NCBI GenBank assembly: GCA_021795535.1
Contig: JAJYPG010000068.1
Span: 1 to 6,798 of the forward strand
Length of the DNA stretch: 6,798 bases
DNA from: Planctomycetota bacterium
GTDB lineage: Bacteria > Planctomycetota > Phycisphaerae > WQYP01
Reading direction: 5' to 3'
Part shown: piece by piece, positions 1,236 through 6,798 of the stretch
Layout of the letters: each line of letters starts with the position of its first letter
Numbering within the stretch: position 1 is the first letter of the stretch
Program-made: the position numbers and the translations under genes
Notes under the pieces: generated by a model
Told to the model about the DNA's origin: nothing
The model's database searches: none
The model's input: only the letters and a program-made list of their open reading frames with translations

Positions 1236-1264
1236 GTGACAATTTATTACGATACCGGCATAAT
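1236..1264 (+). promoter_or_regulatory. Sigma70-like promoter for the transporter operon
   Basis: GTGACA at 1236-1241 (5 of 6 matches to TTGACA) is followed after exactly 17 bases by CATAAT at 1259-1264 (5 of 6 matches to TATAAT). Transcription would start near 1271, leaving a leader of about 137 bases before the GTG at 1408. Spacing and orientation fit well. The reservation is that the housekeeping promoter consensus of this organism is unknown. Confidence 0.55.
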
Positions 1265-1407: not shown

Positions 1408-2778
1408 GTGTATTGGATCAGCAAGAGTATTCATTGGCTGGGAAGATCGAAGCGGCGGCTTCTGCTGCTGGCCGCGGTTATTGGCCCGGGCATGATTACC
1501 ATGATTGCCGATAATGATGCCGGTGGAATTTCCACCTACGTTCAGACGGGAGCCCTGACCGGATTTAATCTGCTTTGGGCCTTCATTATCCTGGTGCCGA
1601 TGGCCTATTATGTGCAGGAGATGACGGTTCGGCTTGGCGCCGTGACGAAGCGCGGTCATGCGGAAGCCATTTTCGATTCCTTTGGTCCATTCTGGGGATG
1701 TTTTTCAATTTTTGACCTGGCGGTGGTTAATTGGCTCACGCTGGTCACCGAATATATCGGCATGACCCAGGCCATGAGCATCTTTAACATTCCCGCGTGG
1801 GTTACATTTATAGGTGTCACCCTTCTGCTTTTCATGATAGTGGTAACGGGAAAGTATTGGACGTTTGAAAAGCTGACAATGCTTTTCTGCGTCTTCAATT
1901 TTGTCTATATTCCAGCCGCGTTCTGGGCCATGCAAACCGGGAATGTCAAGGAGGGCTGGCTGGCTGTGGGAAAAGGATTTTACGCTCCCACACTGGTTGG
2001 AATTTTGCCGATGTCGGCGATGATTACGCTCATCATGGCCAATATTGGCACAACCATTACACCGTGGCAGATTTTTTTTCAACAATCAGCCGTTGTGGAC
2101 AAGGGCATGGATGTTCATGATATAAAGGCGGGGAAAATTGATACGTTTGCCGGATCGCTTTTAACGTGCATCGTGGCGGCGTTTATCATTGTGGCGTCGG
2201 CGGGCGTATTTTACTTCAATCCGCATGGACATATCGTGGTGACCTCCGCGTTGGAGGCGGCCAACAAAATGCCGGCCGTAATGCCGCATAACACCGATTG
2301 GGGGCAATGGGCCAAAGTTCTTTTCGCCATTGGTCTGTTTGATGCCGGACTGCTTGGCGCGCTGTGTGTATCCCTTTCCACAAGTTGGGCCTTGGGGGAG
2401 CTGTTCGGCTGGGCGCATTCGTTGAATAAATCGGTACGCGACGCTCCGTGGTTCTATGTTGTCTATGTGGTGATGCTGGCGGCATCGGGCCTGGTTTCAG
2501 TCATTGCGAGCGTTGATGTGCAAAATGCCATTACGATTTTTGTTCAGGTGGTTGCCGTAACGCTATTGCCGTCGAGCCTCTTTTTCCTGATACTGATACT
2601 TAATGACAAGGATGTCATGGGGAAATATGTGAACACCCGGTGGCAGAACATAGCCAACTGGTCCATCGCGTTGTTTGTCATTCTTGTTTCTACGCTGTAT
2701 GGCGTAACCCAGATATTTCCCGATGTGATGGAACCGGGTTTCTGGCGGCATGCCGGTCGCTTTTTCCATTGGCTTTAA
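1408..2778 (+). CDS. Nramp/SLC11-family divalent metal transporter of the Mg-type (NRMT-like)
   Basis: This 456-residue polytopic membrane protein has about 11-12 hydrophobic segments, the usual Nramp length. The helix 1 motif is GPGMITMIADNDAGG (residues 26-40). The DPGN signature of Mn/Fe Nramps appears as D37-A-G-G40, so the metal-binding Asp is kept and the Asn is lost. In helix 6, ANIGTTITPWQ (211-221) replaces the canonical ATVMPHN-type stretch, so Met becomes Thr218 and His becomes Trp220. Loss of the soft-ligand Met, with the GTTI-T/S-P-aromatic form, is typical of Nramp-related magnesium transporters. Mg2+ uptake is therefore inferred, although Mn2+ or a broader range cannot be excluded. 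The start is GTG 1408: the frame is closed by TGA at 1402-1404, and the next ATG (1492) lies inside helix 1. A purine-rich GAAGG abuts the GTG, so no well-spaced SD exists. The MgtE-like gene begins 13 bases after the stop. Confidence 0.9.
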   Translation: MYWISKSIHWLGRSKRRLLLLAAVIGPGMITMIADNDAGGISTYVQTGALTGFNLLWAFIILVPMAYYVQEMTVRLGAVTKRGHAEAIFDSFGPFWGCFSIFDLAVVNWLTLVTEYIGMTQAMSIFNIPAWVTFIGVTLLLFMIVVTGKYWTFEKLTMLFCVFNFVYIPAAFWAMQTGNVKEGWLAVGKGFYAPTLVGILPMSAMITLIMANIGTTITPWQIFFQQSAVVDKGMDVHDIKAGKIDTFAGSLLTCIVAAFIIVASAGVFYFNPHGHIVVTSALEAANKMPAVMPHNTDWGQWAKVLFAIGLFDAGLLGALCVSLSTSWALGELFGWAHSLNKSVRDAPWFYVVYVVMLAASGLVSVIASVDVQNAITIFVQVVAVTLLPSSLFFLILILNDKDVMGKYVNTRWQNIANWSIALFVILVSTLYGVTQIFPDVMEPGFWRHAGRFFHWL

Positions 2779-2791
2779 CAGGCGGGGTCGC

Positions 2792-4126
2792 ATGATGCCC
2801 ACATCATTTCCAGGCTCTTCACCGCATCCGGCACCGTCCGGTACGGGCGTCGCTGTCCGGGACTACCGGGCGTTTTATTTTTCCGAATTGCGTGGCCGCC
2901 GACTATGCCTGAACAAGGTATCCAACCGCGTGGGAAGAATATCTGATATAGCGTTTAAGATCACAGAGGCCTACCCGGACGCCGTTGGGATAGTGGTCGA
3001 ACATGGATGGGGAAAACCCGTGGAGCTGATTCCGTGGTCCAAGGTAACACGCATAGATGATGATTATGTATTTGTCTCGGCACCGGATCAACCCGACCCG
3101 GTCACGATCAAACACGGAAGTGGATTTCCATGTTTCGTGGACCAACCCGGTTGGATATTGCTTGAATCACATCTTATGGGCAAAACAATTTTTGACATGG
3201 ATGGCCGTCGCACCGAGGTGGTCAACGACGTTCATCTGCTGGCCTCGCAGGCCCGCATGATTCTGGTTCACGTCGATATTTCATTTAATGGTTTTCTTCG
3301 TCGCTGGGGCCTGGCGCGCATGTTTCATGCCAGGGAACACCTTATCAGTTGGAAATATGTTCAGCCGCTATCTCTGGAGGACGCGGTGGCCAGGGATGCG
3401 GTGAGCTTATCGATTACGCGCAAGCAGATCGAAGAACTTCCGCCGGAGGACCTTGCCGATACCCTTGAGGAACTCACGGGCAAGGAACAACAGGCTCTGT
3501 TCTCCGCACTGAAACCGGAAACTGCCGCGGAAACCCTGGTGGAGGCCGAGCCGCGTACCCAGCGACAGCTCATAGCGGATTTACGTTTGGAACGTGCCAC
3601 AAAGATATTACAGGAAATGTCGATTCCCCAACTGGCAGACCTGTTTTCCGTGTTGCCGCACGAGGATGCGACGAAAATGATGCGGCTGCTGCCGTCGGAC
3701 CAGGCATCGCGAATTGGGGAGTTGCTCTCGCAAAGAGAATCGGTGGCCCAATCCATGCTCAGCCAGGATTATCTGGCATTGCCACGGGAGACCCGGATTG
3801 GTGCAACGCTCTCGTCAATTCGCGGGTCGGGAAAGCCGCATGAGGCAATTTCCTATATCTACGTGATTCAGCCTGAAGAAAAAACACTGCTCGGTGTGGC
3901 GGACCTGCGCGATCTGGTACTGGCACGGGACGACCAGACACTGGGTGAAATTATGATATCCCCGGTGGTCGCCGCCGAAGCCGATGACACGCGCGACGAT
4001 TTGGCGGAACTGTTCCTGAAGTATCATTTCCGGATGCTCCCGGTTGTGGACCGCCAGGACCATCTTCTGGGGGTTATCCATTACAATGATATTACCAAGG
4101 GGTTGATGAGCCGATTGCGAGTTTGA
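2792..4126 (+). CDS. Soluble PRC-barrel-like / MgtE N-domain / tandem CBS protein (stand-alone Mg2+ sensor module)
   Basis: From ATG 2792 the protein has 444 residues. Residues about 29-95 resemble a PRC-barrel (SELRGRRL, VGRISDIAF, PVELIPWSKV). A related segment follows at about 123-174 (GKTIFDMDGRR, VNDVHLL). Residues about 208-325 are an MgtE N-terminal helical superhelix (LPPEDLADTLEEL, LRLERATKILQEM, LLPSDQASRIGELL). Two CBS motifs follow at about 326-385 and 386-438 (LPVVDRQDHLLGVIHYNDI). In MgtE channels these domains bind Mg2+ in the cytosol and close the pore. Here the protein ends a few residues after CBS2, with no membrane domain. It probably senses Mg2+ and regulates the upstream Nramp-like carrier in trans (inference). 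I chose ATG 2792, preceded by a GGCGGGG purine run, over ATG 2750, which would overlap the transporter by 29 bases. ATG 2795 is also possible. Confidence 0.88.
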   Translation: MMPTSFPGSSPHPAPSGTGVAVRDYRAFYFSELRGRRLCLNKVSNRVGRISDIAFKITEAYPDAVGIVVEHGWGKPVELIPWSKVTRIDDDYVFVSAPDQPDPVTIKHGSGFPCFVDQPGWILLESHLMGKTIFDMDGRRTEVVNDVHLLASQARMILVHVDISFNGFLRRWGLARMFHAREHLISWKYVQPLSLEDAVARDAVSLSITRKQIEELPPEDLADTLEELTGKEQQALFSALKPETAAETLVEAEPRTQRQLIADLRLERATKILQEMSIPQLADLFSVLPHEDATKMMRLLPSDQASRIGELLSQRESVAQSMLSQDYLALPRETRIGATLSSIRGSGKPHEAISYIYVIQPEEKTLLGVADLRDLVLARDDQTLGEIMISPVVAAEADDTRDDLAELFLKYHFRMLPVVDRQDHLLGVIHYNDITKGLMSRLRV

Positions 4127-4150: not shown

Positions 4151-4357
4151 ATGCCACGTATGAAAATGACGCCGCTGGTCAAAGTATCACTGCTGGTTCT
4201 GCGGATTTATCTGTTGATCCTTCTGACTCTTATTATTATCAGCTTTGTCCGCGTGGCACGCACCGGCAAGTCAGCCACAGCGCCCGCAGCGTCTCAACCG
4301 GCAACCAGTACACAACCCGCGCATCCCGGCGGCGCTTCGGCGAAAATGAAACCTTGA
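4151..4357 (+). CDS. Small single-span membrane protein, unknown function
   Basis: This is a 68-residue protein with a short basic N-terminus, one strong transmembrane segment (about residues 12-33; core IYLLILLTLIIISFV at 19-33), a basic RVARTGK flank, and an Ala/Pro/Ser/Thr-rich hydrophilic tail. The likely orientation is uncertain. AAGGTG at 4140-4145 ends 5 bases before the ATG and makes a reasonable SD. The gap to the MgtE-like gene is 24 bases, so it is probably the third gene of the transporter operon. I know of no named family. Reality as a gene rests on the coherent membrane segment, the SD and the position. A frame starting with TTG at 4123 overlaps it but has Ser/Thr/Arg-rich composition typical of an out-of-frame reading. 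A role as accessory subunit of the transporter is speculation. Confidence 0.65.
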   Translation: MPRMKMTPLVKVSLLVLRIYLLILLTLIIISFVRVARTGKSATAPAASQPATSTQPAHPGGASAKMKP

Positions 4358-5634: not shown

Positions 5635-6471
5635 TCATTTTCCCTGGAGTGTGACACGACGTTTCTGGCAAAAGGGGCAAAAGACGGTGGTACGCGCGCT
5701 GACCAGAATGGATTTAAGAGGCCGACCACAACGTTGGCAGGGAAGTCCGCCGCGACCATAAACTTTCAGCCGTTTGGCGAAGCGTCCCTCCCGCATGGAG
5801 ACATTGCGATAATCACGCAGGGTGGTTCCTCCCATGCTCATGGATTGAGCCAGGACGGTTCCAATACACTTGACAAGCCGAGCTATTTGTTCCGTGGACA
5901 AGCGGTTGAGCATCTGCAGCGGATGAAGGTTCGCCATCCAGAGAGCTTCATCAATATAAATATTTCCCAGCCCGGCGACATCACGCTGCGAGAGCAGCGT
6001 GGCTTTGAGACGTCCGCCGGCGCGGTGCCAGCGGTGTAAATCCGCCGGGCCAAGGGCCAGGGCATCAACCCCAATACCCTTGTGAATATGTTTGTCGCGG
6101 GCCTGATCCATGGAGTCATGCAACCAGACTCCGCCAAAACGCCGTGGGTCCCGCACGCGAATTTGCCGCTGGGAATCAAGGGTGAAAATCAGATGGGTGT
6201 GTTTTTCACGGCCTCCGCCGGTTGGCTCGGCGGTAATCCGTCCGCTCATGCCCAAATGCAACACCAGTGTTTTTTCGTGGTCGAATCGGCAAAAAAGCCA
6301 TTTGCCATGGCGGTCGATGGCGATAACCTTGTGGCCCAGCAGATGGGGCATGGCATGAAGCCCTTCGCGGATATAATCTGGGCGCAAAATATCAATATGC
6401 GTAATTTTCGCCCCGACGAAAACGGGTATAAGCGTGCGACGCACTTCCTCAACTTCGGGTAGCTCAGGCAT
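5635..6471 (-). CDS. mutM: Formamidopyrimidine-DNA glycosylase / AP lyase
   Basis: MutM (Fpg) excises oxidised purines such as 8-oxoguanine and nicks the resulting abasic site in base-excision repair. The 278-residue protein begins MPELPEVEEV. Mature Pro2 is the Schiff-base nucleophile and Glu3 the acid, which fixes the start at 6471. A frame open 16 codons further upstream would mask Pro2 and is rejected. Lys57 (RHGKW), Met75 (HLGMSG), the DPRRFG loop at 108-113, GLGNIYIDEAL (167-177, Asn170) and a C-terminal zinc finger (C245, C248, C265, C268, with the conserved Arg260) are all present, so it should be active. No SD is visible before the start. The response-regulator gene ends 106 bases upstream on the same strand, so co-transcription is possible. 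The gene converges on the HAD gene. Confidence 0.97.
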   Translation of the reverse strand: MPELPEVEEVRRTLIPVFVGAKITHIDILRPDYIREGLHAMPHLLGHKVIAIDRHGKWLFCRFDHEKTLVLHLGMSGRITAEPTGGGREKHTHLIFTLDSQRQIRVRDPRRFGGVWLHDSMDQARDKHIHKGIGVDALALGPADLHRWHRAGGRLKATLLSQRDVAGLGNIYIDEALWMANLHPLQMLNRLSTEQIARLVKCIGTVLAQSMSMGGTTLRDYRNVSMREGRFAKRLKVYGRGGLPCQRCGRPLKSILVSARTTVFCPFCQKRRVTLQGK

Positions 6472-6577
6472 TTTTAACAACCAGAAGCAGCACGCTCCGG
6501 ACGTACCGTAAGCGGGCAATCACCATGACCTATTGGTTCTATAGCCGGCTGACCCGTGTGGGTGTCACCGGTGTGTC
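6472..6577. other. Gap between the response-regulator gene and mutM
   Basis: The 106 bases contain short palindromes: AGCCGGCT (6543-6550), ACCC-GTGT-GGGT (6552-6563), GGTG-T-CACC (6561-6569) and CACCGGTG (6566-6573). They cluster just past the response-regulator stop. No T-run follows on the minus strand, so termination there is not evident. No clear mutM promoter was found. Confidence 0.4.
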
Positions 6578-6798
6578 TCATGTGGTCGGCGCGGGCGCAG
6601 TATCCGGGGCCTCGGCCTTTGGTGGCGGATTAAGCAGCCGTTCCATGGAGGCCAGCAACCGATCCATGCGGAACGGCTTGTTCAGATAATCATCCACACC
6701 CAGAGATTCCGCATAAGTTTTATGCCGTGTTCCCAGATTACCGGTAATCATGATGACGTGGGGCTTGGTTCCCTTGGGTTTACGAGCCTTAATGCGTT
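6578..6798 (-). CDS. Response-regulator receiver domain protein, C-terminal part (5' end outside the window)
   Basis: Read on the minus strand, 73 codons are open from the window edge to TGA at 6580-6578. The peptide has PHVIMITG (beta-4 with the conserved switch Thr), YAESLGVDDYLNKPF (alpha-4/beta-5 with the conserved Lys-Pro), and a last helix MDRLLASMERLLN. This is the second half of a CheY-like receiver domain, and the phospho-acceptor Asp would lie outside the window. The chain ends in a Pro/Ala-rich tail of about 18 residues with no DNA-binding or enzymatic output domain after the receiver. It is therefore either a single-domain regulator or a protein whose receiver is C-terminal. The partner kinase and the process controlled are unknown. 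Confidence 0.88.
   Translation of the reverse strand, partial: RIKARKPKGTKPHVIMITGNLGTRHKTYAESLGVDDYLNKPFRMDRLLASMERLLNPPPKAEAPDTAPAPTT

Follow-up and report, generated by a model that had tools for sequence, protein, structure and literature searches.

Why should a metal carrier of the Nramp fold be encoded directly beside a protein built from the cytosolic part of an MgtE channel? The question is raised by a stretch of 6,798 nucleotides from a Planctomycetota bacterium (GenBank assembly GCA_021795535.1, contig JAJYPG010000068.1), which at its full length we call the window. An earlier note on this DNA had described an Nramp-like carrier lying 13 bases from a protein that has the MgtE N domain and a CBS pair and lacks the MgtE pore, and had read the two as a split Mg2+ transport system. 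Both genes are confirmed, at positions 1408-2778 and 2792-4126, and a third gene, encoding a small protein with one hydrophobic helix, follows them. Our answer, to which we give even chances when it is taken as a whole, is that these are a three-gene operon of an Nramp-related carrier of the NRMT clade, in which a soluble, MgtE-derived protein would act as feedback regulator and the helix as coupling subunit. The parts are arranged as follows.

1408..2778, plus strand: Nramp-related (NRMT-clade) carrier, 456 amino acids (aa) (PF01566 E 2.9e-67; 7qia E 8e-57)
1516..1527, plus strand: codons of carrier residues D37-A-G-G40, the helix 1 half of the ion site (DxxG), from the alignment and the motif in PMC8806188
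2050..2061, plus strand: codons of carrier residues T215-T-I-T218, the helix 6 half of the ion site (TxxA/T replacing AxxM), from the alignment
2792..4126, plus strand: putative soluble MgtE-derived regulator, 444 aa, PRC barrel - MgtE_N - CBS pair; start supported by P0001
2870..3361, plus strand: regulator N-terminal part rich in beta strands, residues 27-190 or so, partly a PRC barrel (PF05239 E 3.2e-6; model strands)
3437..3739, plus strand: regulator MgtE_N domain (PF03448 E 4.9e-21)
3737..4123, plus strand: regulator CBS pair (PF00571 for the second repeat; CBS-pair structures align over about residues 316-444)
4151..4357, plus strand: third component, a 68-aa small protein with a single transmembrane segment, core match over residues 2-35 (profile E 3.5e-9)

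The pairing of carrier and regulator recurs well beyond the window. Loci were collected in one scan of genome contigs with a 13-sequence carrier alignment, and the best 80 of 582 confirmed matches were kept, a sample that leans to near relatives and in which many loci come from metagenome bins, for which taxon labels are sometimes wrong. In 76 of the 80 loci the regulator follows the carrier directly on the same strand, and the remaining four contigs stop 2, 2, 122 and 144 nt past the carrier; frames are broken in a few contigs (carrier of L081 and L085, regulator of L016 and L057). The split system that had been proposed, with conserved linkage, is supported. Full fusion of carrier and regulator, the other form that such linkage might have taken, was not seen among 120 listed of 2009 and 120 listed of 6109 matches, nor in the loci, in a search covering candidates no longer than 1.75 query lengths. 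In L014, L018 and L082, long regulator frames were considered as fusions and rejected, being open frames that overlap the carrier gene.

Adjacency of unrelated genes by chance can be set aside almost entirely. Nothing speaks for it beyond the usual caution about gene order in uncultured genomes, and against it stands a linkage that is found in several gene orders and as a fusion (described below), across bacterial and archaeal phyla, while no other neighbour family recurs in more than eight loci (two reach that number), if an antisense-frame artefact in 18 is disregarded. As a separate observation, one of these two families is porin-like (L011, L019, L042, L043, L060, L061, L075 and L076; median 19 nt upstream of the carrier), with an L043 member that Pfam assigns to the OprB porins, and this family perhaps provides the outer-membrane step of the same uptake route. 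The other, a response-regulator-like family, also occurs in eight loci, but on both strands.

The distances between carrier and regulator fall into two classes, about 0-20 nt (some genes overlapping) and about 190-330 nt, with outliers such as L042, L075 and L081. The long gap encodes a protein of about 57 aa with one hydrophobic span and the motif KIREINxRYxxPxIxMSxxVKxxLLxLRxYL. A profile built solely from 40 gap open reading frames (ORFs) and searched unfiltered against 10,043 ORFs from 87 sequences matches a short ORF directly behind the regulator in the short-gap loci (E 2e-11 to 9e-5), and one such match is the unannotated window ORF at 4151-4357; the first match away from an expected place appears at E 1.7e-3. 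By a scripted rule, 27 loci have the order carrier-regulator-helix and 44 the order carrier-helix-regulator. Four more of the latter order (L036, L037, L057, L081) were scored as other for their short regulator ORF, which runs into the contig end in L036, L037 and L081 and is a 174-aa frame stopping 135 nt before the contig end in L057. All three genes are thus together in 75 of the 80 loci, a few of them cut or broken, and the other five contigs end first: L060 after carrier and helix, and, with no helix match, L010, L024 and L080 after the carrier and L016 within its broken regulator. That the three genes are linked we regard as nearly certain.

Each of 35 aligned small proteins has a hydrophobic stretch of 19 residues (mean hydropathy 2.5, least 1.9). 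Lysine and arginine are more numerous before the span than after it in 32 of the 35 and equal in 3, the window's protein included, and because of this excess the N-terminus is suggested to lie inside, weakly so for the window. No convincing family match was found in Pfam (best E 0.037) or NCBIfam (best E 0.0029, the window ORF against an FHA protein and far below the model cut-off), and none in the PDB at E up to 1; the NCBIfam model for MgtR matches one of the 35 at E 0.055. Database proteins matching the small protein at E up to 0.001 number 1,439, and every name given among the 120 listed is 'hypothetical protein'.

The family was also followed in whole genomes. All 15 of the genomes with such loci contain it, 14 of them exactly once. 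Among 200 genomes of one phylum it occurs in seven, always as a single copy that lies 11-25 nt behind an NRMT match of at least 511 bits. This sample holds 12 NRMT-like carriers of at least 429 bits: seven have a separate helix and regulator, three are long carriers with a helix-like C-terminal tail (single-sequence E 0.0011, 0.005 and 0.45) and no regulator in the flank, and two are followed by a weak helix-like ORF (E 6e-4 and 0.037), again with no regulator. The 12 canonical Nramps of the same sample (150-180 bits) have neither helix nor regulator. In 246 genomes of a second phylum there are 10 helix matches at E up to 0.01, three of which are separate genes behind an NRMT and four of which lie inside the C-terminus of an NRMT frame of 570-596 aa (E 1.1e-5 to 0.0044). 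By sequence matching, then, the genomes searched have the helix family nearly always next to an NRMT carrier or as a fusion to its C-terminus.

The helix identity of the three long-carrier tails rests on profile-profile comparison, not on the single-sequence E values. Specifically, the last 85 residues of seven long NRMTs match the small family at P 9.3e-9, and the alignment keeps register across P-x-x-[ST]-x-x-x-[RK]-x6-LR-x-YL. As controls, 22 slices of the same long NRMTs clear of the tail gave no P better than 0.19, 22 slices taken from 11 canonical Nramps none better than 0.15, and 100 column shuffles none better than 0.0085. Four end slices with increasing overlap with the tail gave P 0.053, 0.0022, 6.9e-9 and 1.3e-9. 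Because 11 core helices and one more hydrophobic stretch precede the tail, its motif would be cytosolic in the fused carrier, as is proposed for the free protein.

A tree of 127 carriers, quickly made and with SH-aLRT support only and a long-branch warning, separates these architectures. Cut or broken carriers (L026, L034, L080, L081, L083, L085) and duplicates (L087, L088, L093, L133) were omitted from it, and the cut loci L010, L016, L024 and L060 were labelled by their clade. The clades are carrier-regulator-helix (28), carrier-helix-regulator (56), fused (7), weak helix with no nearby regulator (4), regulator-carrier (20, support 93) and canonical Nramps (12), so that six architectures form six clades with five changes, the least possible. 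Genomes of the fused clade can keep an adjacent regulator, upstream in G228 and G434, convergent in G294 and downstream in the plasmid locus L004. Read from these sequences, the system spans bacterial and archaeal phyla, with the helix standing beside the pair or fused to the carrier in many bacteria and archaea, and we consider it probable that the helix is a carrier subunit.

What does the carrier transport? EleNRMT (7qia) is its closest solved structure by sequence, ahead of a plant aluminium transporter at E 1.5e-12, and is also its best match by fold; the helices of the predicted model (pLDDT 90.8) are read as 11 transmembrane segments. The window's carrier has the published NRMT ion-site signature, DxxG-TxxA/T (PMC8806188), in its residues D37-A-G-G40 and T215-T-I-T218, and D37, G40 and T215 are invariant in all of the 80 relatives aligned. 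At position 218 the first 58 rows have either T (51) or A (7), and the 22 rows from long-gap loci all have A. Where proton-coupled Nramps have two helix 6 histidines stand W220 and Q225, neither of which varies across the 80-row alignment, and EleNRMT has W and N there. In the tree, 115 NRMT rows separate from the 12 canonical rows with support 100, subject to its stated limits. We are highly confident that the carrier is of the NRMT kind.

Riboswitches bear on the metal. Rfam models were run on 58 of the 80 loci, 29 for each gene order. An M-box precedes the carrier on its strand in L030, L031 and L033 (507-521 nt before the frame) and in L056 (731 nt), with no ORF longer than 122 aa between them. 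These four are among 29 scanned loci of the window's gene order, in which several contigs begin too near the carrier to show such an element, and they belong to one clade and thus may count as one event. In the branch of EleNRMT relatives considered below, an M-box lies ahead of the regulator in 5 of 20 loci. This element supports Mg2+ for part of the NRMT clade, and the NRMT site together with the M-boxes of the window's gene order makes Mg2+ plausible as cargo; that it is the main cargo in this organism we think somewhat likely. The M-box leaders themselves are long, with about 500 bases holding no long ORF after the M-box and a terminator-like hairpin (L030:5493-6001, L031:5375-6001, L033:675-1197). 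A cobalamin riboswitch was also seen downstream of the operon at L058:9103-9297.

The regulator gene encodes no MgtE pore domain (PF01769) that is detectable at E up to 1. Its PRC-barrel part at the N-terminus had been missing from the earlier domain list, and has no entry among the listed structural matches of the whole-protein model. The best structural matches of that model (pLDDT 87.7, pTM 0.49) are the cytosolic domains of MgtE, with low TM-scores (0.26-0.28 by query) and a high rmsd because the N domain and the CBS pair are placed differently. No relatives of the regulator were found in viral contigs. To ask what such a protein might sense, we mapped residues of MgtE onto 87 regulators, 54 of the window's kind (the window, 37 database proteins with no known context and 16 short-gap loci) and 33 from long-gap loci. 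The residues were the cytosolic Mg2+ ligands E59, D91, D95, D226, D247 and D250 with plug-helix E258 and D259 (PMC5882242), and Y170, R187, D188 and F227 of the ATP pocket (PMC5529423). Three of the Mg2+ ligands are kept: E59 (E in 50 and D in 3 of 54; D in 29 and E in 2 of 33), D95 (45 of 54; 29 of 33) and D247 (54 of 54; 31 of 33). So are all four pocket residues, which in the window are Y355, R373, D374 and F413: Y170 in 53 of 54 and 33 of 33, R187 as R in 54 of 54 and as K in 17 and R in 12 of 33, D188 as D or E in 51 of 54 and 31 of 33, and F227 as F or Y in 54 of 54 and 31 of 33.

The origin of the regulator is best approached through the EleNRMT branch, represented by the loci of the best 20 of 70 second-phylum genomes with an EleNRMT match at E 1e-40; carrier loci of four more genomes, reached via the helix search, were examined besides. 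All 20 loci have the regulator directly upstream of the carrier, and 19 of the 20 regulators have membrane segments: one C-terminal span in L113-L116, four to six span-like segments in L117-L131, and none in L132. In the L131 regulator the membrane domain of MgtE is still recognised (PF01769 E 4.6e-17), and the alignment to MgtE extends right to the end (2yvx, E 1e-73), with glycine at pore residue Asp432 (numbered with an offset of 23 relative to the chain index), which is the Mg1 pore site of PMC5882242. The alignment of the L130 regulator to MgtE also reaches the membrane part, with a weak PF01769 match (0.41); the domain was not found in L113, L117 and L128 at E up to 0.01, nor in L115, L118 and L132 at E up to 10. 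By eye, the plug-helix acidic pair is kept throughout L117-L131. The 3' parts of the L117-L131 regulator genes encode worn membrane segments, of which the Pfam pore model recognises L131 alone among those tested. In 11 of 12 EleNRMT-branch genomes searched, PF01769 is found nowhere at E 0.001, so most of the branch seems to be without a classical MgtE. We infer from this series that a channel tied to a carrier decayed in its pore, a direction of change in which the regulator would descend from a full MgtE channel.

Taken together, these features suggest the following mechanism. The carrier would import Mg2+ and probably Mn2+ as well. The regulator may use its MgtE_N and CBS parts to bind cytosolic Mg2+ and nucleotide, and slow the carrier when Mg2+ is high. 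The helix would lie against the carrier as a subunit, with its conserved N-terminal segment in the cytosol, and pass on the state of the regulator, replacing the plug helix and membrane domain of MgtE in these roles. From gene arrangement and sequence, action of the regulator on the carrier seems rather more probable than its absence, and coupling by the helix is a tentative proposal that falls short of even odds. Equally tentative is the broader picture of NRMTs as three-subunit, feedback-controlled transporters in which the regulator is a tamed MgtE whose pore died after its gate had passed to another fold. Living intermediates in that picture would be an MgtE pore that has lost Asp432, a worn membrane domain, a single anchor, and a soluble form with a separate helix.

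A number of observations weigh against this mechanism, and each group of them has its own rival explanation. The first group concerns the metal. No Rfam element, M-box included, is found in the window at E up to 1, 25 of the 29 scanned loci of its gene order have no M-box, and neither has any of the 29 in the order carrier-helix-regulator. Two carrier-regulator pairs on plasmids, L001:4306-7713 (Citrobacter pPSV, conjugative by PLSDB typing, with the helix gene between carrier and regulator) and L004:3210-6839 (Cellulomonas p110066), are divergent from genes for an ArsR/SmtB regulator and a heavy-metal P-type ATPase, neighbours that point to other metals for these copies. The Acidobacterium capsulatum relative is reported to have fully rescued a defect in Mn transport and was judged a likely Mn transporter, with Mg2+ rescue only at low millimolar Mg2+ (PMC4072509), and EleNRMT is reported to transport Mn2+ as well. 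The carrier might thus move Mn2+ or another transition metal, with the regulator reading that metal or the nucleotide state and Mg2+ a low-affinity cargo at most. We think this unlikely, though far from negligible, in view of the M-boxes before four loci of the window's gene order and of the helix 6 threonine, whose loss in EleNRMT is reported to have abolished detectable Mg2+ transport and which is invariant in all 80 carriers.

The second group concerns the regulator. The equivalent of D91 is lost in all 87 regulators, the D226 position is H in 52 of 54 window-kind rows, yet D in 8 of 33 long-gap rows, and the D250 position is K in 44 of 54 and D in 2 of 33; all three positions are changed in the window's own protein. 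By these counts of kept and lost residues, conservation is higher in the nucleotide pocket than at the Mg2+ sites. The plug helix with E258 and D259 is missing from the soluble regulators. According to Shin et al. 2014 (PMC4072509), co-expression of the MgtE-like protein with the A. capsulatum carrier gave no further rescue, and Clostridium acetobutylicum carriers worked without such a protein. A gating effect that does not appear in published co-expression, and a soluble form with no plug helix, would suit a metal- or nucleotide-binding partner such as a buffer or chaperone, the alternative that Shin et al. raised. We give this explanation a small chance, since kinship with an MgtE (that of L131) which has lost the pore residue but kept the plug-helix acids fits a retained gate better.

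The third group concerns the helix. It is recognisable in none of the 20 EleNRMT-branch loci despite their regulators, and in G178, G018, G019 and G074, four genomes whose NRMT comes with a fused or weak helix, neither a regulator nor an MgtE is matched at E 1e-10. Another five carrier matches in the 200-genome sample, at 233-314 bits (G206, G178 twice, G074, G019), have no helix match, G013 has a second, weak helix match (E 3.3e-4) away from its NRMT, and the remaining 3 of the 10 second-phylum matches (E 0.0035-0.006) also lie away from an NRMT. The four regulator-free genomes speak against the helix as a mere anchor of the regulator, an idea that we disfavour. They are compatible with a factor for carrier stability or turnover, like MgtS or MgtU for MgtA/MgtB, with no connection to the regulator, and so are the fusion of the helix to the carrier and the known existence of small proteins that protect or degrade Mg2+ transporters (PMC10710835). 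Such a role seems improbable to us to about the same degree as the transition-metal reading: helix and regulator accompany each other, in either of two orders, in 75 of 80 loci, while the remaining five are cut, and the branch that lacks the helix has membrane segments in 19 of 20 regulators, suggesting a link. Whether the helix is a leftover of the regulator's anchor was also considered and rejected, as the L113-L116 anchors compared with the small-protein profile gave P 0.0021 and probability 13, which is insufficient.

Part of the feedback-controlled system has been proposed before. Shin et al. 2014 (PMC4072509) reported that most NrmT genes adjoin a gene homologous to the cytoplasmic domain of MgtE, and offered feedback regulation or a chaperone role as speculation. 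The earlier note on the window therefore stands in its conserved linkage and its plausible Mg2+ cargo, but its idea had already been published, and it had overlooked the third component. A title-level search of the literature, which did not cover subscription papers and is not proof of absence, found no later work on the carrier-regulator pair or a third gene. New here are the one-helix third member, its C-terminal fusion, the membrane-segment regulators of the EleNRMT branch and the M-box at 4 of 29 loci. If the mechanism is correct, a regulatory module has changed transporter, such that the gate of a channel controls in trans a carrier of another fold, and the series of decaying MgtE pores becomes a case of testable evolution. 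The helix would then be a missing subunit to include when the structure and uptake of NRMTs from these clades are studied. Its omission would also be a possible reason for the null result of co-expressing carrier and MgtE-like protein, if A. capsulatum has a helix gene, which is a supposition.

The surroundings of the operon in the window comprise the following features.

5-841: B12-dependent ribonucleotide reductase gene, 3' end
1237..1264, plus strand: promoter-like TGACAA - 16 nt - CATAAT, 5' of the carrier, by eye in the alignment with L007 and L008
4693-5541: HAD hydrolase
5635-6519, minus strand: formamidopyrimidine-DNA glycosylase
6578-6796, minus strand: open ORF

L007 and L008 are Planctomycetota contigs and the nearest relatives of the window in the genome collection (carrier 91% identical). 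The second box of the putative promoter is CATAAT in the window and CATACT in L007. Directly after this site, by eye, lies an inverted repeat, GGCAT-CCGA-ATGCC at 1276-1289, with counterparts GGTAT..ATACC in L008 and GGTA..TACC in L007, a paired change that preserves the repeat. No shared riboswitch was found upstream of the window's carrier, where only the promoter-like site and this small repeat are seen.

Among known systems, the NrmT operons of C. acetobutylicum (Ca_c0685) and A. capsulatum (Acp2976-2977; PMC4072509) are among the closest; they likewise pair a carrier with a pore-less, MgtE-like neighbour. The MgtE-like gene lies upstream in A. capsulatum, whereas the window has the order carrier, regulator, helix; in C. 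acetobutylicum it reportedly takes the form of two smaller genes. The one-helix protein has no mention for these operons in the available text of that paper.

EleNRMT of Eggerthella lenta (7qia; PMC8806188) shares the fold, the DxxG-TxxA/T site and the NRMT clade with the window's carrier, and its structure is that of the carrier with nanobodies. Its 20 nearest relatives fetched differ from the window in having the regulator upstream, membrane segments in 19 of the 20 regulators and no recognisable helix. The MgtE channel (2yvx, 2zy9, 5x9h) has in common with the window's regulator the N domain, the CBS pair, the ATP-pocket residues examined and three acidic Mg2+ ligands. In contrast, the regulator has no pore and no plug helix, carries an extra N-terminal PRC barrel, and is supposed to act on a carrier of another fold than MgtE. 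Finally, MgtS, MgtR and MgtU are small proteins reported to act on Mg2+ transporters, some by protecting and some by degrading them (PMC10710835). They are tiny, like the helix, and bear no clear sequence relation to it, and the helix is set apart as a member of the operon or as a part of the carrier itself.

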